From NCBI GenBank assembly GCA_949152475.1, contig OX424555.1, forward strand, positions 59,191,977-59,255,976: a stretch of DNA of 64,000 bases. Direction: 5' to 3'. The DNA comes from Terebella lapidaria. Its lineage: Eukaryota; Annelida; Polychaeta; Terebellida; Terebellidae. A model generated the notes under the pieces. It saw only the letters and a list, made by a program, of their open reading frames with translations. It was not told where the DNA came from and made no database searches. Position numbers and translations under genes: made by a program. This document shows, in pieces, positions 34,791 to 62,900 of the stretch (positions are counted from its first letter, which is position 1; the number at the start of each line of letters is the position of its first letter).

Positions 34791-35387
34791 TCGGAGCTAT
34801 TGGCCTGGGAGTGAGGCACTGCGATGCGGGCAAGATTCCCTGGTGTCGGCAATGTAAATTTAAAGCATGAGGAGGGACGAAAAATGAGGGAGGTCTGGGT
34901 GAGGAGCTTCTTCTTCCGCTTAGAGGGGAGAACTGGGAGAGCCTCGTGGGGCTTTTCTCATTCCGGTCGGAGAGGGGGATGGTGCTGATAGGAGGATGAC
35001 GTTTGTGAAGATGGGCTGGGGATGATGGACTTTGAAGTGCAGAGTGAGGGTGTGTCGATGACTTAACTCCTCCAACACAACACAAATTATAAACACAAAG
35101 GGAAGATATCTCAGTAAACTATATAATGTTCAATGTATTGACTAGTATGGCGCGATTTTTAGTCTCGCGGATTGTGACGAAATTTATGTACATGTATATA
35201 AACAGTCCAACTTGATATGTGATTATCTTGTTTTGTCCATTCATCAGAGAATATCATATTTATCATAATTTATACATGAACAACACAAATTCCACCTACA
35301 ATTGTTTGTTATTCGACATCCACAAGCAGATGTGTCTTGAAACAAACGTTGACAAAACCAATGTTTGTTAGTATTTAAAACATTAAC

Positions 35388-35785
35388 GTAGTCCGCTACA
35401 AACAGTGAGGTAACGAAGGATCAAAATTTAAAAATTATTTCTTGAATATTATCTCTTCAAAATGACCCATTTTATACAGTAACTGATCAGCATCCTGATA
35501 CTGAAAAGAACATAAGGGGTTACCGTGCTGGTTTCTTCGACATATGCGATCAAAATCACAAACATTTACCTAAAATGACATAAATTATGGCATCTTCGCA
35601 CATTTTTTATCCATATTCGCATCTTGCATCGTGTTTTCCATGCGAACGGATACGGTGACCCCCTATTTTCTTTTCAGTTTCGGATGCTGATCAGTTACTC
35701 TATACAATATGTCATTTCGAAGCTCTAGATTATGTTGATACAGTTATTTATTTTTTTTAAAAACTCACTTTTGGAGTGGACTACC
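35388..35785. mobile_element. TTAA-type MITE, copy 1 (398 bp)
   Basis: Ends cgtagtccgctacaaac and (inverted) ggtagtccactccaaa, flanked by TTAA on the left and TTAG on the right. About 400 bp are closely similar over their full length to 53768-54187, including ggatacggtgaccccctatt. A piggyBac-like target is suggested by TTAA; no transposase. Confidence 0.85.
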
Positions 35786-40984: not shown

Positions 40985-43900
40985 ACACACAGTTTTGATC
41001 GATGTTGCAGAGGCAAGTCTTCCACAAGGATTACTTCTGCATCTCTCAGTGGACAAGATCAAGTGTAGAAGGGTAAGATGCCGTGTGATGAATCTGTCCA
41101 ATAGAGATATTGCATTATCCAAATCATTACAGATTGCAAACATTTACCAATGTGAAGTGGTTGCTCCTGAAGTGGACATCCTGTGTCAGGAAGGACAAGT
41201 ACCCGATAGCATAGAGAAGCGTTCCCCTTACCACGAATTGAGGAGTGCATTGATCAACTCAAATGTGCCAAATACTTTTCATCTTTGGATTTAACACAGG
41301 GATATCTACAAATAAAAGTGTGCGATGATGATCAGCAAAAAACCGCGTTCAGAGCCATGGGGTCACTATACGAATTCACTCGACTCCCATTCGGGTTGCG
41401 TAATCGCCCTGCAACGTTGTCGAGGCTAATGGGGAGGTGCTTGGGTGATTTTCATGACAGAGGGTTAATCGTGTATTTGGATGATATCCTCGTTTTCTGT
41501 TCCTCTGTTTCAGGCACGATCAGTTGTCTGGAGACGGTTTTCGAATGTCTGCAAGAGTTTGGTCTAAAAGTTGTCATTTCTTCAAGAAAAAGGTTGCATT
41601 CTTCGGACACACTGTCATTGCAGCTGGGGTTGAGACCGATCCAACCAAAATCAAAACAGTGGAAATCTACCCGCGACCAACAACACAGAAGCATGTACGG
41701 CAATTTCTAGGGCTAATATCCTATTTTCACGGCTACGTCAAAGGTTTTGCCCAGAGAGCAGCACCACTGACAGACCTTCTGACTATTGACAATGACAAGA
41801 AATCGAGAAATACTAAAGTGGACATCACAAAACATTGGACAGAAGCATGCCAAGAAGCATTCGAAACTCTGAAGCAGAAACTCGAAAAAGCACCCATCCT
41901 AGGGTTTCCGGATTTCAGAGTTTTGCTTGGAGGTAGATGCGAGTTTGGAGGGCTTTGGTGCCATTTTGTCTCAAAAACGAGAAAAAAAGTTGTAATTGCA
42001 TATGCCAGTCGTCATCTCCGAAAGTACGAAAAGTCCGGCCGCAGCTACAGTTCCATAAAATTAGAATTTCTGGCTCTGCATTGGGCAGTTACCCCAAAGT
42101 TCCATGAATATCTCTATGGATCACGTTTCACCATTCTAACTGACAGTCATCCTCTAAGCCACATCATGAAGGCCAAACAAACAGCTGCGGATGGCAGCAA
42201 ATTAGCCAATTTAGCAGACTACAACTTTGAAGTAAAGTTTCGTTCTGGCCACAGTAATGCTTCAGCAGATGGGCTAAGCCGTAACCCAGTGAGCGATGAG
42301 CAGGATGATGAATCCGATGAAGAGGATTTAGTAATCACTAAATGTTCTGAGTTTCAGGCACTTGTACAGGAACTTTGTCAGGCAATTGATTTAGGTGCAA
42401 AACTCGTCAAAATTAATCTCCTCTCAGCATGGAGGAGAAGATAAGCAAACTCGAATTCAAGAAATCTGCAACAAATGCAGCACAATGATCCATGTGTGGG
42501 AAGGATTATGGACATCTTGACGAAGGGTGTACGAGCGAATAGGAATCAAATAAAACAAGAACCAATTATTGTCAGGAAATTGCTGAACAAGTGGAATCAA
42601 CTCATCATCGACGATGGCCTTTTTTTCGACAGATGACAATCGATAGTGAAACATGTATTGATTCTACCATTGTCACTTCGTTCAGTAGTTTTGAAACAGC
42701 TACATGATGTCACTGGACACCAAGGAATTGAGCAAATCCTACAGCTTGTGCAAAGCCGGTGCTATTGGCCGCCATTGACAACAGATGTAACGGAATACTG
42801 TAAGCGATGTGTATGGTGTCAGTTGTCCAAGGAACCTTCTCCAAAGTTTAGATCAACCATGTCACATGTCATGGCTACTCGACCATTGGGAATAGCCGCG
42901 ATGGATTTCACTCTGTTGGAAAAGTCATCATCCGGTTTGGAAATTGTACTGGTCTTCACGGATGTATTTACTAAGTACACCATAGCAGTGGCAACTAGGG
43001 ACCAGACAGCAAAGGCAGTGGCCAACGTATTTGTGAGGGAGTGGATACATAAGTTAGGTATCGTGGAGTGTATCCACAGCGACAGAGGTCATTCTTTTGA
43101 GAACAAGATTATAGAGGAGCTTTGTTCTATCTACAACATACAGAAATCCAGGATAAGTCCATATCACCCACAAGGAAATTGTCAGGTTGAGTGCTTTAAT
43201 ATGACTCTACACAACCTGCTTCAGACACTCAATATGGAACAGAAAGCTTGATGGCATGATCATTTGCAGGAGTTGGTGTTCTCATATACCTGTACACCAC
43301 ATTTGTCCAGAGGGTTTGCTCCATATCACCTATTCTTCGGATGGGACCCACGATTACCTATCGATAATTGTTGTCATTTCCCACAGGTACCAATGGAGAC
43401 ATACATACTTGGGTCCAGTTGCATCAGCATCGAATGCAAAACGCGATATTGAGGGCTAACCAACAGCTAACAGAGAAGGCCAATGCTCGTAAACAGAGAC
43501 ATGATAAGAAAGCTAAGAATCCATACTTACCTGTTGGAACACAAGTGTTTACCCGGCACCAGGTCATATGGAGAAACACGATCCAGGACGTGTGGAACTC
43601 TAGTCCATACACTGTGGTTGGGCAGTTGCGAGAGGACAACAGTGCCATCTTGATCAGGCGAGCTACAGATGTTGAAGTGAAGGTGGTCAATCGAATTGAC
43701 TTTTTGCCCTTTGCGACTGCTGACGATGATGTTCCTTCATCAGAGGCACCTAGTGGAAATGCGAGTAGTTCCAGTGAGGATGAGTTACTTGTCATACAGC
43801 GTGCTGGCAATCAGGAACCAATACCTTTGCCAGATAAACCCGCACCAAGATGGTCACGAAGACCAACAGCTGGTAAACACTCGAATCCTTATAACCTTCC

Positions 43901-52930: not shown

Positions 52931-53162
52931 TAATCAGTTTGTGGACGCAGGCTACAAACGGGTTTGTGTGTGTTAGCGTGCCGGTAGTCTATCCCCAAGG
53001 TTATCATTCCCGCCTTTTTATCCGTTCTTCTAATTTCTACAGTCCGCATTTTATGTAGAATTGGTATCCCTTGACAACGTTACCTGATTATTCAACCAAT
53101 GACAATCTCTCTTTTCGACTAGAAGCTCCTCGAGGTTGTTTTCCTTTCAATCTTTCAATTTT
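52931..53162. repeat. Repeat A1 (first copy)
   Basis: 232 bp identical to 59217-59448. Starts taatcagtttgtggacgcag and ends ctttcaatcttttcaatttt-like sequence; similarity stops abruptly on both sides. Confidence 0.97.
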
Positions 53163-53767
53163 TAATCCAAGATATTCTGCCCCATCGCTTGAAGTATAGA
53201 AGTAAAACTTTATCCCGCTTATCATTAGTGATCACTGTTATTATAGGGTTTTATATTTTTTGAATCCCTCCTAGCATCTAACAGATTTATTTATTTTTCC
53301 CCGAGGCCGGTGAAAGACCGAAATTTTTGCCTCGATCGCTTCTCCAGAATCGATAGGCCTACATGTTATAAATATTTTGTCATATATATTAAACACATTT
53401 TATATCTACTGTAGCCGTATTATACAAAGAGTATCAAATTATTAATCGGATCGACACATCTGTCTCCGATGGTTAGTGTGTTCGCCTTCAAATACAAATC
53501 TGGATAAGCCCCTATCGTGTCATCGGTCGATCGTCTCATCGACCGGCTCGGTGATGCTGCGACATTTCATGCTCAAGGTGGTCATAACGTTGTTTGTATA
53601 ATTTTGTAAGTTCGTCACGAACGACAAACGTGGATGTATTTTTGATCTCTACTCCCGCTCCACCCCTCTCCCAGTATTTTCCCTATTCATACTGCATCCT
53701 GAAATTCCGTGGGTGTAAAATGATGTACACAACATCGTGTAGACAACATCACACAAATTTCAATTAA

Positions 53768-54187
53768 CGTAGTCCGCTACAAACATGGAGGTAACGGAGA
53801 GTCAAAATTTAAAAGTCATTTGTTGAATATTATCTCTTCGAAATGACATTATTTTGTGGAGTAAATGATCAGCGTCCTGGTGCTGAGGGGAAAGTGGGGG
53901 GTCACCGTGCTCGTTTTTTCTACATATTCCATCAAAATCACACATATTTACCTAAAATGACATAAATTCTGGCATTTTTGCACATTTTTTCGTCCATATT
54001 CACATCTTGCATCGTGCTTTCCATGAGAACGGATACGGTGACCCCCTATTTTCTTTTCAGTTTTGGGATGCTGAACAGTTACTCTGTGACATATGTCATT
54101 TTGAAGCTCTAGATAATGTTGACACAGTTATTTATTTAAAAAAAAAACTCTTTGACCCCCTCCCCTCACTGTTTGGAGCGGACTACC
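53768..54187. mobile_element. TTAA-type MITE, copy 2 (420 bp)
   Basis: Ends cgtagtccgctacaaac and (inverted) ggtagtccgctccaaac, flanked by perfect TTAA at 53764 and 54188. Full-length relative of 35388-35785. It is nested in the split-direct-repeat element. Confidence 0.9.
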
Positions 54188-54689
54188 TTAAGACATCAAG
54201 ACATTTAAAAACCGGTAACAACATTGTTCACGGACTAGATTCAGTGTGGTGTAGATCTATCGCTTAGAACATCATCCAACTGGTGACACTTGACGGCTAC
54301 GTAAAGTATTTTATACGGTATTTGTTTCCTTTGAGAGTGTGGGCCAGCATATCCATGTACATCGACAGTTCTTTCATCAGTTCATTCTATCTTCATAACA
54401 AACATAAACTTATTATACTAAATCTAGTAATAGTTTATCTAATAACGTATAATAATATATATATATACGTTCAAATGTTTAGGTCGATCAATTTTTACAT
54501 AGTCACAAATCCATAAAATGTTTTCTATATTTGTTTATTCCTCAATCTGTTATCATTTGTTAATTCGTCTGTAATCTGCAAGTATAAATATATATACTCT
54601 CTAATGTGTCAGTTATCCTCTGTCATTCATACAAGTATTTATCATATTACAATGTAAATATATAATATTTATAATTTATTTTGTTTTAT

Positions 54690-55870
54690 AATGGAAGTGC
54701 AATTCCGCTGACGGTTCAAGGCTGTTTGCCCTAGTTCCAGTGTTATTATATACATCTATAATTTCATTATTTATATATCATAGATTATATTTTACACAAA
54801 ATATGTATATAATGTTTTTCGTGTCAGTGTCTGCTCTCGTTGCGGGATTTATCCTGGGAGTCCAATTAACAGGCTCCAGAGCTTTCACTGTCAGTTGTGG
54901 GCTGTGTGCCCTAGTTTCCAGTTTATTATTCATGTTTTTTTTATATATATTTACATATATTTCCAGTATTTATTCCTTTATTCTATATGTACTATCCTAT
55001 CATTTTTTATACCATATACACATATATACAATATCTATAAAAAAAAAAATAAAAAAAAAATAAAAAAAAAAGTATATATTTACCAATATGTGTTAATGTC
55101 AGTGTCTGCTCTCGTTGTGGGATTTATCCTGGGAGTCCAATAACAGGCTCCAGAGCTTTCGCTGTCAGTTGGGCTGTGTGCCCTAGATACCAGTTTTATT
55201 ATTCATGTATTCTATATATATTTACATTTTTCCAATATTTATTCCTTTATTCTATATCTACTATCATACCATTTTTTATTCCATATATACATATATATCA
55301 TATCTACAAAAAATATGTATATATTTACCTATATTTACCATATAAATAATGTGTTAATGTCAGTGTCTGCTCTCGTTGTGGGATTTATCCTGGGAGTCCA
55401 ATTAACAGGCTCCAGAGCTTTCGCTGTCAGTTGTGGGCTGTGTGCCCTAGTTACCAGTTTTAGTATGCATGTCTTTTGTATATATTTACATTATTTATAT
55501 ATCATATTATATATATATATATTTGAAAATATTTCAGTTGTGGGTGGTGTGCCCTAGTTCCAGTATTTATTCATTTAGTCTATATGTACTATCAGACCTT
55601 GTTTGTATACCATATATATATATATATATACATATATATAAGATGTACCCCCCCCCCCCCCCCCCCAAAAAAAAAAAAAAAAAAAAAAAGTTTATATTTA
55701 TCAATATTCACCATATATATATAATGTGTTCAGTGTCTGCTCTCCTTGCGGGATTTATCCTGGGAGTCCAATTAACAGGCTCCAGAGCTTTCGCTGTCTG
55801 TTTCGGGCTGTGTGCCCTTGTTACCAGTGTTATCATTCACGTCTTTCCTAGATTATATATCTACATTATT
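54690..55870. repeat. ~270-bp tandem repeat with a conserved 105-bp core
   Basis: Four cores beginning gtcagtgtctgctctcgttg (near 54826, 55097, 55358 and 55728) contain ttatcctgggagtccaatta and gggctgtgtgccctag. Two partial cores lie near 54695 and 55530. Between cores lie variable AT, (TA)n, poly(A) and poly(C) tracts. The core can be read as SVSALVAGFILGVQLTG in several copies, but one copy is shifted by a deletion. Confidence 0.88.
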
Positions 55871-55889
55871 TATTAAACCCTGTCACTTA

Positions 55890-56130
55890 CTGGATGTAAG
55901 TGGCCATGACCTTGGTATTGTTTAGGGCTGATTGCCCTTGGTAATATTTAGGGCCAACTGCCCGTGCTAACGTTTAGGGCTCACTGCCCATAGTAACGTT
56001 TAGAGCTGACTGCTCAGGGTAATTTTAGGGCGGACTGGCTGTGATAATGTTTAGGCCTGGATGACCGTGATAATGTGTAGGGCTTACTGCCCCTGGTGAA
56101 ATTTAGGTCGGTCTCCGGTAATGTTTAGAT
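55890..56130. repeat. ~29-bp minisatellite agggctgactgccc
   Basis: About nine imperfect units of the type gtaacgtttagggctgactg plus ccc. The gggctg..gccc pair also occurs in the core of the preceding array, so the two may be related. Confidence 0.87.
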
Positions 56131-56689
56131 TTCAGTATTATATATTTGATATATTTCTCCATTAGATATTTTCATATATTTCATAAATTAAATTTAAGTA
56201 TACGTGTATATTTTAAATACGGTACTTCACAATTCATTTTATCAAATTTAATTAAATTTTCACTTCCTCCTGTCTCGCTTCAAAAGATGCTAGCGTATTA
56301 TAAATTCGTTGGTGTTTATGGTTCTTGTTATTCATTCCCAGTAAATCTGCATCACGATACCTCTTTCATTTCGGAGTTCAATCTTGTTCAAGTATTTATC
56401 ACGTTAAATGTTGTTCCACAGGTACTCGTTCTCGTTTTCTAATATTGCAGAATATGCCTCCACAAGAAAACCAAGGCTGTTGAGCCATGTGCCAACATAA
56501 CAGTACCCCTCGACTCTGGAGCCGACAATCTAATAACTGCTGAGCATGTCTTCACGTGTAAATTCGTAGGATGCTCACGCTCCGGATCCCAGTGCACCTG
56601 AAACCACCTCCAACATCAATACTGCCATTACGGGTGTAGGTCAGGTGCCTCTCCTGTCAACAGCCGAGGACCTCAGGCTGTTATTACCC

Positions 56690-57440
56690 TCCGGTTACAC
56701 AGCTGTGGGTCAGGAGTTCCAGCCTCCCAGTCAGGGTGCTGCAATTATAATCATCGATCTCAATCTGTGGGTCATGAGCCCCAGTTCCATCTCTAATTCT
56801 AGATCTTAGTGTCTAGCTGTGGGTCAGGAGCCCCAGCCTGCAAGTCCGGGTACTCAATTCTAATCGTCATCTAAATCTGTGGGTCAGGAGCCCCAGCCTG
56901 CAAGTCTGGATACCCAATTCTAATCGTCATCTAAATCTGTGGGTCAGGAGCCCCAGTTCCATCTCTAGTTCTAGATCTTATTGTGTAGCTGTGGGTAAGG
57001 ATCCCCAGCCTGCAAGTCCAGGTACTCAATTCTAATCATCGATCTCAATCTGTGGGTCAGGAGCCCCAGTTCCATCTCTAATTCTAGATCTTAGTGTCTA
57101 GCTGTGGGTCAGGAGCCCCAGCCTGCAAGTCCAGGTACTCAATTCTAATCATCGATCTCAATCTGTGGGTCAGGAGCCCCAGTTCCATCTCTAATTCTAG
57201 ATCTTAGTGTCTAGCTGTGGGTCAGGAGCCCCAGCCTGCAAGTCCAGGTACTCAATTCTAATCATCGATCTCAATCTGTGGGTCAGGAGCCCCAGTTCCA
57301 TCTCTAATTCTAGATTTTAGTGTCTAGCTGTGGGTCAGGAGCCCCAGCCTGCAAGTCCAGGTACCCTAGTCTAATCATCAATCTCAATCTGTGAGCCAGC
57401 CCCCCAGTTTCTTCTCTTAATTCCAGATCTCAGTCCCTAG
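56690..57440. repeat. ~57-bp repeat in 114-bp dimers
   Basis: About twelve copies of ctgtgggtcaggagccccag. They are followed alternately by cctgcaagtccaggtactca and by ttccatctctaattctagat, so the true unit is a dimer. Units are very similar in 56820-57370, suggesting recent expansion. Confidence 0.92.
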
Positions 57441-57479
57441 CTGTAAGTCAGCAGCTCAAGCTGCCCCTGTTCTGGGTTT

Positions 57480-58973
57480 TTCTATTCCAGAATTATCACC
57501 AGTCCTTTCCTCTTACCCTTCCCTATCCTGAACAATATTTATGAGAAATGGTTAGGAAACCAAGAATTCTTCACAAGCACTCCACCTGGTTAACCCAACC
57601 CCTTTTTCAATTTTTACAATATCTTTACGTAGCTTTACACTTATCTTCCACTCTCATACACAAATCTAAATTTGTTCCTCAATACCTTTAAATTACATTA
57701 TAAAAACTTACATTCCTCTTTTATCTCTACCTTACTAATTTCCAAACTCATCCTATTACTGAGTGTCGTCTGGCACTTGTTGCAATATTCAATATCAATA
57801 TTCCACATATCATAATCCTATGTCAACATTTTTCATCAATTAATTATAGTCTACCTTTATGTAAGTGTGTTTAAATTATAACTCTAGCTCCAGAATATTA
57901 AAAAAATTTGTTGTCGACCTTTTAACCCATCGTTCTACATCAAGTCTTATTTCTTTAACATTTTCCCTAAAATTAGTGGCCTTTTCATAGTATACCATAA
58001 ACATTTTCACTGCATACATATGATTAGTGAGCTCCCAGAGATCTAGGAGCATGGATGTCCATCTTCTCTATGTTCAAGGGTCGTCCAATCTATCTTTCCC
58101 TTTACTACTAGTAATTTATTTGCTTCATCCCATCCCATTTGCTTCGTTTCTATGATTAATCAACAAAGTCGTGGCCAATAAGACTTCCACTTCCAATTTC
58201 CAAATGTTCCTCCTCCAAAATACAACTATTATGTTTTTGGCACTTTCCCCGTTGTCGATTATATTTCATACAATTCACAATTCAGTCCAAACATTCTGGT
58301 ACTAAGGGTATCACCATTACAGTTCGGCTTCGTTTTCAGGTTTCACCCCTTTCTCGTTTGACAGATCCTCGTCCAACAAACTTCACTGACCCAGTATCTT
58401 ATCCTTTCACATTCTTCATCGGAACCAGTATCATTTCCGGTGTTACGGTCACTATATGTTAATCCAGAGTTTTCATCAATCGCCGTTGGATTTTTACTCT
58501 TGTCATTCTCATCCTTCGTAATCAATTCGGGTCAAACTAGTAACAGTCAGTCTCACCATTACAGGCATGTTGATTCTAGAATATTCTGATCATTTTCTAC
58601 CCAACACCTTACCTCTGTTACTTTAATTACATTGTTCTTTGTCAAGACCTACGGTCTATCTATTCTCATCTACTTTTTTCTTCACATCATTTAATGGTCA
58701 ATTTTTGTTCATTCCCAACTCCCTCCGTCGTTGTTCATTTATATCGGGGTTTCATTCGGGTCTTATGTTTTACTCCTAAGCTGAGACGGATAAAATCAGC
58801 AACTGTCTTACTTGCTTATATCCCACAATTATAGTTTAAGGGTCGTAGTTGTCGTCCTAGGTTTTTCTTTTTCGTGGTAAATGTATGTCCTCTGAACGGA
58901 TGCTTTACTTTCTTGGATCCGGCTGGGTCGTTTTTGGCTGTCACCATTCCCAGTTCCTGTGAATGCTTTGTGG
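57480..58973. other. Pyrimidine-rich stretch of the split-direct-repeat element
   Basis: The plus strand is strongly C/T-rich for about 1.5 kb. On the minus strand a 78-codon Lys/Arg-rich frame (59052-58816) and a 60-codon acidic frame (58525-58343) stay open. This might be a decayed gag-like region on the minus strand, but no domain is recognised. Confidence 0.45.
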
Positions 58974-59216
58974 CGCGTGTCAGCCTTAGGTTCTGATTTT
59001 TGTCGTTCATATTTGTGTTATTTACCCACATATCATGGTAATTGTTAGTCATAACCCATTTCCAATAATTATGTCTTATTTCTCATTGTAACTCATTTTA
59101 TTGTAACTACCTCAACTTCATTATGTTTGTATATTATAATTTAAATAATTATATTTTTAAATAAACCAAGGTTAAATCCCAGTCGGTTAGTTACTTTATA
59201 ACAGCAACACACACAA
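58974..59216. repeat. Repeat B1
   Basis: 243 bp identical to 59718-59960, ending exactly where A2 begins. Confidence 0.97.
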
Positions 59217-59448
59217 TAATCAGTTTGTGGACGCAGGCTACAAACGGGTTTGTGTGTGTTAGCGTGCCGGTAGTCTATCCCCAAGGTTATCATTCCCGCC
59301 TTTTTATCCGTTCTTCTAATTTCTACAGTCCGCATTTTATGTAGAATTGGTATCCCTTGACAACGTTACCTGATTATTCAACCAATGACAATCTCTCTTT
59401 TCGACTAGAAGCTCCTCGAGGTTGTTTTCCTTTCAATCTTTCAATTTT
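59217..59448. repeat. Repeat A2
   Basis: 232 bp identical to 52931-53162; directly abuts B1. Confidence 0.97.
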
Positions 59449-59717
59449 CCCACCCAACCCACCCTTTTTCCTTGTCAATATTATTTACATACAAGTACAG
59501 TTGTATACTATAGTACTATACCATATCATTTCATTGTCATGTAATCTCGTGTTGTTTCTCCGTTATATTCAAAATATAATCTTATCTTGTATTTCTTCAC
59601 TTTCCTATAGTATGTGTTATTGTACTATTTTAGAATTATGTCTAATGTATCTTTTTTCAGTTTGTACTATGTTTCTTCCATGTATCATTATGTACGGTAG
59701 ATCGTATTTACTGTGAA

Positions 59718-59960
59718 CGCGTGTCAGCCTTAGGTTCTGATTTTTGTCGTTCATATTTGTGTTATTTACCCACATATCATGGTAATTGTTAGTCATAACC
59801 CATTTCCAATAATTATGTCTTATTTCTCATTGTAACTCATTTTATTGTAACTACCTCAACTTCATTATGTTTGTATATTATAATTTAAATAATTATATTT
59901 TTAAATAAACCAAGGTTAAATCCCAGTCGGTTAGTTACTTTATAACAGCAACACACACAA
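59718..59960. repeat. Repeat B2
   Basis: 243 bp identical to 58974-59216; marks the right end of the element. Confidence 0.97.
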
Positions 59961-62900
59961 ACCATAATTAATCCGTCTGATATGGTATGCCATATGTTGC
60001 AATATTCAAAGTCTAAATTATTTTTGAAAGAGGTGGGGGTGGGGACGGGAGGAGGGTTAGGCGGGAGAGGCGCGATTTCAGGTGTGACTAGATTAAAAAT
60101 ATTCGATTTTATTTGATATACTAGTATTAATTGTATTAAATATACATCCACAAGATATGTCAGCTAACGATATTTTCACAAGACAAGACGTGTAATATCG
60201 AACCGACTTGTGTCCTTTTTCAAATGCTTGCATCTTTTTCAAACACAAAGCATGTGTAACTTTGTGATACATTCGAAAATGTGTGCCATTCGTTTTCGAA
60301 AGGGGGATTATGGGATCGACGAGTACTGCCCCTCACTGAAAGGGGTCAATTTGATTGGCTGCTAGTCTCTTGGCGCCCAACCAACCACAGCGTTCAATCC
60401 TTTCCTCGTCCCACTTCCACCATGTGCAGCGTTCAATCGTTCCCACATCTCCCCCTTCCACTGGACCAATGTATTTTCTCGCAGTAGGCCTATTAATTCC
60501 ACATTCACAATTTAGTGTTATGTTATCTCTAAAGTCAGGTTACAATTATGAATACGCAGAATACATGCTGTCTTGTGAAGTGTAATATTTCTCAGATATA
60601 TTTTAAATATAAATTATATACACGGGTCTTATCTCATGTATTTGAATATATTTGAGCCGAAGGTTCAAGATATTCAAGTTGATATTTTCTCTGATTTTCC
60701 GACAAAACGATAATGAGCATTGAACTAACTGTATTCCGTCAGTACGCTAATGTTTTTTTTTTGACATTAGAGCGTTGGGGGCGAAGCCCCCAACTCTCTA
60801 CATGTCTATGTGCTGACTTTTTTTATGGAGGTTTCATGCCAACCTATCGACGCCCGTTTTCGCATGTAAACCTTTGTACACCTACTTCAAATGAGGATTT
60901 TCTTCGTCCTTGACATAAAATCTCTCGATTTGATGGCGAGCTTTGAATATTCCACATATATATAATGCATAAATCGATGTGTTAGGTTTGAGAAAATTAC
61001 GCAAAATGGTCAGCTCGTCTGGAAAACGTCAAAATGGCGGAGCCGATGGAAATTCACGTTCCCAGAATGCAAAGCAAATTTTACCGCAATGACGCGTACT
61101 TTGGAACGCACAATTTTCTGTGCAGCATTTTGTGCATGCATGTACATGTAACCTTGCGTGTGGCCTTCTTTGGCGTCATGAAGTAAACACAACGATTCGT
61201 CTGCGGTACCACGACTACATTCACCGTAATTGGACATATTTTATCACATGACAAGGTGTTCCATGCTGGGTTGCGAAACCTTTTTATTTGAAACTGGTCT
61301 TTTAATTTGCTCAGTATGCATGTGTTATCTATATCATGATATCAGATGCAGATATCCCTCATAGTTTCCAATATTTTAAGGATATTTTATTGAGGTTCAA
61401 TATCATTTTATCAGGCGTTTTATGTTTACTCATTAGGAATATGATTGAAGTAGGCCTATATGTGTTTCATCATAATATACGGGAATGAAATGGAATCATG
61501 TGGGACATGATATGTTTCAATTTTCTTTTTTTTGTGAGGGGGGGAGCGAGGGGGGAACGTTGTGTAAGATATATTCAGGTCTCGTGGTGCTGATGGTGTG
61601 CTCGAGCTCTAATGTCGTCTCCCGCAGTTAGCTGCATTTTCTTGTTACACTTTCTGTCACCTGTTTGTGGGAAAATCCCCTCGTTGTGTTGAAGGCATGG
61701 GACAATTTCTTGACAAACTTCTTGATCCGTTAATCATTAATCAGAGAATGCGGGTCCCAAACCGAGAATGCAGGTTAAAATTGTGCTCACAGAATGCGGG
61801 CTGTTTATGAAACGTGGATTTACGTATACATGCATATAAGAGTGACGAGCTACATTTATATTTCATGCATGATGTTAATTGGATGGATTATGACTACTTT
61901 TGATGGCATTGCTCTCCTAACAAAAGTCGAGGGCAAAATGACGTCGTCGAATGACCCGACGGAGCGACGTAGGGTCATTGACACTGATTTCGCTTGATTT
62001 TATCCTGAAAATGCAGGGAAAATCCCAATGAGACATGCAAGCAATATAATTCCGTCTGGATGCACTAAATTAGAATATAATATGTAAGCATTGACACGTT
62101 TCCGTACACTTTTTTATTCGTGAGACGGAAAAATTTACAAAAGTATATTACTTTCATGAACACATGGTATAGGCTGATGTGTTGTCAGCTATAACGCACC
62201 GAACTATCATGAAAATAAGAGATGGTCAACACACAATGCATGTTATAATTTTACGTGAAACCGTCAAATCACGAAGGAGAGCTAGACGATTTCAAAAGTT
62301 ACAAATAAGTTCTAGGTAGAGATAAAGATCACGGGGGACTAGGCCTATCTGTTCCGCATAGAACGGTTTACGGCGGTTTGGTTCCGATTTACGTGTGGTT
62401 ATATTGTTTGTTTCACCATAAGTGAGAAATTATGGGCAAAGGTCAGCTTAACAGATAGTATGTGAGACCCGTGTGCCTATTTCTATAATATAACGCTTAG
62501 GAGCATAATATATGAAAATATCATTCGCTTGGGGAAAATTCTAGTTTTGGTGTAGTATGGGGTATATTGGATGATATGTTCCCATTTACCGAAACGAGCA
62601 CAGGTCACAGTTCAGATTTACGTGGTTGTGCGTTGGGATTTACGAGACTTGTAAAAACATTAGAATAGACAATGCTATCAACTGTTTCTAATATTATTTT
62701 GGCATAAGTTGGAAATATTGGAATACTATCTGACCCAATGACGTTTGATGGATGAAGGTGCCTTATATAGAACGGGATATGACATGGTTCTGCTCTATTC
62801 TAATATACTTGCTTTAAGCCATTGTAAATTGTATTCATTTATATTCTGCCATGGTTAATTAACCCCGCCCGCCTGTCGATTTGGTTAATAGTGATCTCGT

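Follow-up and report, generated by a model that had tools for sequence, protein, structure and literature searches.

A dispersed family of non-coding split-direct-repeat elements in Terebella lapidaria and a candidate tyrosine-recombinase partner

Layout and dispersal of the element

A 64,000-nucleotide stretch of the genome of the annelid Terebella lapidaria (hereafter the window, contig C1:59191977-59255976) carries, at positions 52931-59960, an element bounded and interrupted by two pairs of direct repeats, A and B. We characterised its layout and searched the 761.6 Mb genome for its relatives. The parts of the element, and one related site downstream of it, are as follows (window positions):

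52931-53162, plus strand: repeat A1, 232 bp, left end of the element; begins TAATCAGTTTGTGG
53163-58973, plus strand: non-coding body, 5.8 kb (5,811 bp)
53763-54137, no strand assigned: repeat stretch inside the body, 86% to window 35382-35753
54822-55496, plus strand: tandem array, period about 269
55913-56097, plus strand: tandem array, period 26
56765-57455, plus strand: tandem arrays, periods 52, 60 and 113
58974-59216, plus strand: repeat B1, 243 bp; AATAAA at 59160; ends CAACACACACAA
59205-59260, plus strand: B1/A2 junction (circle-joint sequence) with a nested palindrome, proposed recombinase site
59217-59448, plus strand: repeat A2, 232 bp
59449-59717, plus strand: segment C, 269 bp (269-273 in other copies)
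59718-59960, plus strand: repeat B2, 243 bp, right end of the element; AATAAA at 59904
61169-61382, minus strand: paralogous empty site of the copy at C7:34774916-34781513; flanks meet at 61341/61340

A1 and A2 are identical at 232/232 positions and B1 and B2 at 243/243, and in both pairs identity is lost exactly at the repeat borders, on both sides. The last base of B1 (59216) directly abuts the first base of A2 (59217). An earlier reading made from the sequence only had given the order A1, body, B1, A2, B2, with identical pairs and B1 abutting A2 to the base. Repeat alignment bears out each of these points and adds segment C, which separates A2 from B2. Helitrons end in 5' TC and 3' CTRR and insert at an A/T target; the ends found here, TAATC...CACAA, do not fit, and this assignment was rejected.

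The same reading had described the body as mostly satellites, which was overstated, since tandem repeats cover 1,759 of the 7,030 bases of the element (25%). Its remark that there is almost no coding sequence holds: none of 10 body frames tested gave a Pfam match over the cut-off, the two weak matches of one frame staying below it (E 0.06 and 0.10). The longest frame between stops has 141 amino acids (aa). Neither reverse transcriptase, RNase H nor tyrosine recombinase was found among these 10 frames, and the element is therefore a non-autonomous derivative and not an autonomous member of its group. A string resembling a retropepsin motif, 'LDSGAD', near 56500-56560 lies in a 42-aa frame without Pfam match and was taken as chance or a relic. 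Elsewhere in the window, open frames at 41210-42441 resemble a Ty3-type reverse transcriptase by eye.

The element belongs to a young, dispersed family of non-coding 7-kb elements. A1 with 338 bp of the body gave 40 scored genome places at at least 97% (of 166 candidates); 39 of them begin at base 1, the other at base 2. The B1-A2-C-B2 unit gave 40 scored places at at least 98%, one of them with a further short match (of 194 candidates); 39 of the 40 reach the last base and one falls 35 bases short. We fetched the best 30 of 41 junction matches, 24 of which could also be read through A1. All 30 show B-A-C-B with B abutting A, in differing flanks, and all 30 carry the 3' part of the body upstream of B1, with 1,291-1,500 of 1,500 bp covered. 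Genome-wide pattern counts gave 143 A heads (at most 2 mismatches), 132 B tails (at most 1 mismatch) and 54 B/A junctions (at most 1 mismatch), against 0 for each reversed control. Among the first 100 A heads listed, 42 stand at a junction, another 31 pair with one that lies 3.6-23.2 kb downstream (median distance 5,757 bp), and the remaining 27 fall in neither class. Three B/A junctions at C3:35934047, 35946008 and 35957972 lie on one strand, 11.96 kb apart; a piece containing the element's 3' end has probably been triplicated locally in tandem.

Insertion sites, repeat pairs and short forms

The DNA adjoining the element differs in all 30 right ends and all 24 left ends listed. For the copy at C7:34774916-34781513 the empty site was found twice, on the minus strand of the window at 61341/61340 and at 2049/2050 of a second locus (L043), and in both paralogues the flanks join without a base gained or lost. 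A second empty site, of an older solo copy (L101/L120), shows no clear duplication, small indels blurring it, and a third candidate (L023) is ambiguous. A naive test on 24 paired flanks found 16 sharing 1-4 bp (2 of these 4 bp) and none more, with no consistent target duplication among the 24. The exact empty site shows insertion without duplication or loss at the target. Around the window's empty site, positions 60755-61646 are 91% identical to L043 1723-2633, a stretch that begins just behind a tyrosine-recombinase match; this part of the window is possibly the tail of another tyrosine-recombinase element family.

These observations bear on two explanations that we consider very improbable, each to about the same degree. 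One is an LTR (long terminal repeat) retrotransposon with rearranged repeats: the element's poly(A) signal and its direct repeats at the ends would fit, but of 24 copies in which both ends were read none has the same repeat left and right, the empty site is exact, and no 4-6 bp duplication recurs. The other is an assembly error or segmental duplication. The C3 tandem does resemble local duplication, whereas the flanks differ in 30/30 right and 24/24 left ends and the empty site is present in two paralogues. The sequence-only reading had named a plain LTR arrangement, or a layout unique to this locus, as what would overturn it. Neither is the case: the order A1...B1/A2..B2 recurs in 30 junction loci (24 with A1 read), and with 143 A heads and 54 junctions in the genome the layout is not unique to this locus.

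The target is not random in sequence, the consensus being GYCATAW/AW (the slash standing for the insertion point). In 44 left flanks we counted G at -7 in 20, C at -5 in 26, T at -3 in 24 and A at -2 in 41; in 39 right flanks, A at +1 in 28 and T at +8 in 25. The left count omits L099, L108 (B tail at left), L111 and L112 (not ends), and the right count omits L120-L122 (B cut or altered) and L123-L133 (one flank base read). The left flank resembles the B tail, with 4.48 matches of 12 at offset 0 compared to 2.86-3.68 at 44 control offsets; the right flank scores 3.50 against the A head, within its controls of 2.72-4.06 (32 flanks long enough). When the target was examined for dyad symmetry, two centres competed (+3 and -1) and neither was clear. 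In the A-C copy L099 (C1:90671819-90672198) the left flank ends with 12 bases equal to the B tail, which is either a B1 remnant or a target closely resembling the joint.

Within single copies the repeat pairs are more alike than between copies. B1-B2 differences summed over 30 copies amount to 21, compared to a permuted mean of 50.3, and A1-A2 differences over 24 copies to 20, compared to 46.3; for A and for B, 0 of 20,000 permutations were as low. B1 equals B2 exactly in 21/30 copies and A1 equals A2 in 16/24. In L037, B1 and B2 each carry 3 changes relative to the window and none relative to each other. Both members of a pair thus either take their sequence from a single template when the element transposes or undergo later conversion, and the data fit both alike.

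Besides the full form, two short forms were read by their ends. Eighteen single A heads were examined, a sample biased towards A-C since it was chosen as unlisted in the A1-plus-body genome match. Eleven run from A directly into C, 1 is a B/A/C junction and 6 are interrupted within A. Right ends are known for 10 of the 11 A-C copies: 7 have the exact B end followed by unrelated DNA, one ends at B 238, one breaks at B 193 and one about 26 nt into B. All 10 have A at -2 of the left flank. The complementary A-body-B form is represented by C16:28077763-28083457 (start L001, end L134) and C8:2022615-2027855 (start from the A1-plus-body match, end L135), both with unrelated DNA directly after B1. 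These two copies are known by their ends, no junction being listed inside either, and three further candidates are given by coordinates (C12:10051604, C4:36082135 and C8:14388693). A circle with two B/A joints, cut at both, would give exactly A-C-B and A-body-B.

The short forms could also be homologous deletions of full insertions (A1 with A2, B1 with B2) and owe nothing to a recombinase, an explanation to which we give slightly less than even odds. The repeats are near-identical and deletion shares its end points with the circle route; recombination is also the explanation given, in the accessible text, for solo AB repeats of Ngaro in Cafeteria (PMC8547959). Deletion should make A-body-B outnumber A-C-B, because 744 bp separate B1 from B2 and about 5.8 kb separate A1 from A2. 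Of the single A heads examined, a sample biased to A-C, 11 of 18 are A-C, versus only two A-body-B ends read and three by coordinates.

Some truncated copies stand apart. Three independent copies (L094, L095 and L097) stop at almost one position, A 220-222, beyond which the DNA is unrelated; their left ends are normal and have A at -2. In L098 (C1:66486363-66486742), bases 1-215 of A are joined, as judged by eye, to B in reverse complement without a gap; this is an inverted, self-joined copy that was perhaps produced by template switching. At C4:45017949 and 45044681, 26.7 kb apart, B is present from base 16 behind the same preceding sequence as far as shown, and the 600 bp upstream of one of these copies is unlike the element.

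The B/A joint and a candidate autonomous partner

The B1/A2 joint is predicted to fold, as a single strand, into outer arms (59206-59216 and 59250-59260), an unpaired spacer, an inner stem lying in the A head, and a loop. The window joint has z -3.5, with 0/200 shuffles folding as well. A tyrosine-recombinase search found three coding families with B1/A2..B2 behind the recombinase frame (L057, L059 and L063). Their joints are mutually dissimilar in sequence, yet fold alike, with z -4.1 for L057, -4.9 for L059 and a weak -2.0 for L063 (8/200 shuffles as good). Other 80-mers folding as low or lower numbered 0/339 in the window and 0/167, 3/165 and 3/167 in the three coding families. In the coding example L070/L057, A1 equals A2 over 219 bp and is followed by the frames, the recombinase and B1/A2..B2; its left flank ends in ATAAAT, resembling its own B tail GTAAAT. 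Pfam detected RVT_1 and Phage_integrase in L062 and L065 and Phage_integrase in L057, and no methyltransferase match was found in the frames on the reverse-transcriptase side of L057, L062 and L065, which are partial elements. AATAAA stands 57 nt from the end of B in the element and 45 nt in the coding families L057 and L062. A satellite array at window 30747-31706 matches the tandem array behind the coding tyrosine-recombinase element L053.

These folds suggest that the B/A joint is probably the site cut by the recombinase. More doubtfully, the enzyme might recognise the joint as a folded single strand, as the integron integrase does attC, with one-strand exchange at the edge between outer arm and spacer. 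Recognition of this kind would account for a target that is like the joint on its B side and not on its A side. It would also explain the near-constant base at the break despite targets unlike the joint, and a partner joint (below) that differs in loop and spacer only. Against it, the dyad search in the target gave no clear centre, and the folding is seen in prediction alone.

Searching the genome with the outer arms and a free spacer (CAACACACACAA N22-45 TTTGTGTGTGTT) gave 48 sites, and 0 for the control. By eye against the junction list, 46 of the 48 are family junctions. The 2 others lie at C3:20589240-20589295 (minus strand) and C14:28157517-28157572 (plus strand), and at both a tyrosine-recombinase frame stands ahead of the joint, by 283 bp (C3) and 282 bp (C14). 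This frame is open over 327 aa at C14 and has one stop at C3, and it is preceded by a reverse-transcriptase frame of 578 aa at C14 and 550 aa at C3; the domain matches are 30-31% for the recombinase and 40-41% for the reverse transcriptase. The chance of both sites arising by accident is about 1e-8, a crude count that assumes 300 recombinase places. The C3 joint is identical to the window joint at 51/56 positions. Of the 5 changes, 4 are in the terminal loop; the fifth is in the central spacer and affects a base for which the fold predicted for the window shows weak pairing. At C14 the A head matches without mismatch over 31 bases, and a matching A1 right arm stands 5,849 bp before A2. From these sequence likenesses, the two loci are likely the autonomous partner, which would be rarer than the element, and the shared joint and the coordinates make it appear that the element is mobilised by it in trans. 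The longer relative with reverse transcriptase and recombinase for which the sequence-only reading had proposed a search is thus found in part: two loci have reverse transcriptase, recombinase and B/A joint in order, while their layout is given by coordinates and one 56-bp junction was read.

Other candidates did not qualify. An 11.5-kb copy on C9 (L069, 9.5 kb read) is a non-coding copy with duplicated body stretches. The sequence upstream of the odd B end on C4 (C4:45018270-45018869) has no long forward frame, and B is its sole match to the fetched loci. When 150 PF00589 places and 122 places matching the L057 recombinase were compared by eye with the 54 family junctions, none lay within 20 kb except C12:815194, which is 17 kb from one junction and on the opposite strand. 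The partner came to light through the arms pattern only.

No target duplication and a precise joint would fit any tyrosine-recombinase element, and the case is made from DNA alone. A derivative of a Crypton-like DNA transposon, moved as a DNA circle without an RNA step, would share these traits. We consider it improbable: the repeats are split with an internal B/A joint, B contains a poly(A) signal, the pairs are homogenised, and at both loci sharing the joint arms a reverse-transcriptase frame directly precedes the recombinase frame, whereas Cryptons have a recombinase without reverse transcriptase.

Proposed mechanism and comparison with known systems

We propose, with a probability of about 0.85, that the element is a non-autonomous, Ngaro-like retrotransposon with split direct repeats, belonging to the tyrosine-recombinase order, and that an autonomous relative mobilises it in trans. 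The Ngaro/PAT-like assignment of the sequence-only reading is supported by the layout in 30/30 junction loci and the lack of target duplication. In a first step, an RNA would start close to A1 and extend to the B2 poly(A) signal, and because of this the outermost ends would be absent from it. The partner's reverse transcriptase would then copy the RNA, the internal B1/A2 joint supplying the missing ends, to give a circle with two B/A joints. This step predicts the observed variants common to A1 and A2 and to B1 and B2 of one copy. The partner's recombinase would next recombine a B/A joint with a target like the observed GYCATAW/AW, without duplication. Finally, the two joints of one circle may recombine with each other into A-body-B and A-C-B circles, which would integrate as the short forms.

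Several points weigh against this proposal. The RNA and the cDNA circle are known by inference, the analysis being one of genomic DNA. B1 and B2 differ in 9/30 copies and A1 and A2 in 8/24, one copy (L025) having 12 differences between A1 and A2. The permutation test repeats inherited sharing, because the copies are related by descent, and one event was possibly counted in several copies. The partner is known by coordinates, by domain matches of 30-31% and 40-41%, and by one 56-bp junction. At C14 the first 21 nt of the partner A1 are without match; at C3 no matching A1 was found, the recombinase frame has its stop, and no B tail within 1 mismatch was listed nearby; the likeness shown is that of the junction core.

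To our knowledge, replication and integration of split-direct-repeat retrotransposons are known mostly from models. Here most of the predicted traces can be seen in a single genome, in a young non-coding family with many near-identical copies: full-length and both kinds of shortened insertion, repeat pairs homogenised within copies, a target motif, an empty site that is exact, and a likely partner that shares the joint. The family also points to a small candidate recombinase site, for whose testing one protein and one short DNA suffice.

Among known systems, TOC1 of the alga Chlamydomonas is a non-autonomous PAT-type element with split repeats and internal tandem repeats. The accessible text of the sources used here describes the others. 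Ngaro elements, of the order DIRS, have the structure A1-[ORFs]-B1A2B2, with ORFs denoting open reading frames (PMC8547959, PMC9210276). The element shares with them the split direct repeats A1-[body]-B1A2-B2 and the lack of target duplication; it differs in having no reverse transcriptase, RNase H or tyrosine recombinase in the frames tested, and in its 269-bp segment C. Split repeats are found in PAT elements as well, which differ in encoding a methyltransferase (PMC4157794). In the openly accessible literature, subscription papers lying outside it, we found no description of a full-length non-coding split-repeat family with both short forms, and none of a palindromic Ngaro joint, though such descriptions may still exist. 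The sequence-only reading had considered a non-autonomous, satellite-carrying element of the order DIRS to be new. Non-autonomy stands, but satellites make up only a quarter of the element and its kind is not wholly new, SIRE and solo AB repeats being in print. VIPER of Trypanosoma cruzi has a short non-autonomous form, SIRE, with the structure A2-B2 (PMC6681497, PMC12278014), which resembles our A-C-B form; SIRE is about 0.4 kb, whereas the full-length non-coding form described here keeps four repeats and a 5.8-kb body. The solo AB repeats of Ngaro scattered in Cafeteria burkhardae, put down to recombination (PMC8547959), are isolated A-B units like A-C-B, and in the T. lapidaria family the complementary A-body-B is present as well. 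Finally, the integron attC site is a tyrosine-recombinase site that forms a hairpin with an unpaired central spacer and is used as a folded single strand (PMC6393395). Its likeness to the B/A joint is one of analogy only, attC being bacterial and served by a different partner protein, and the fold of the element's joint being predicted.

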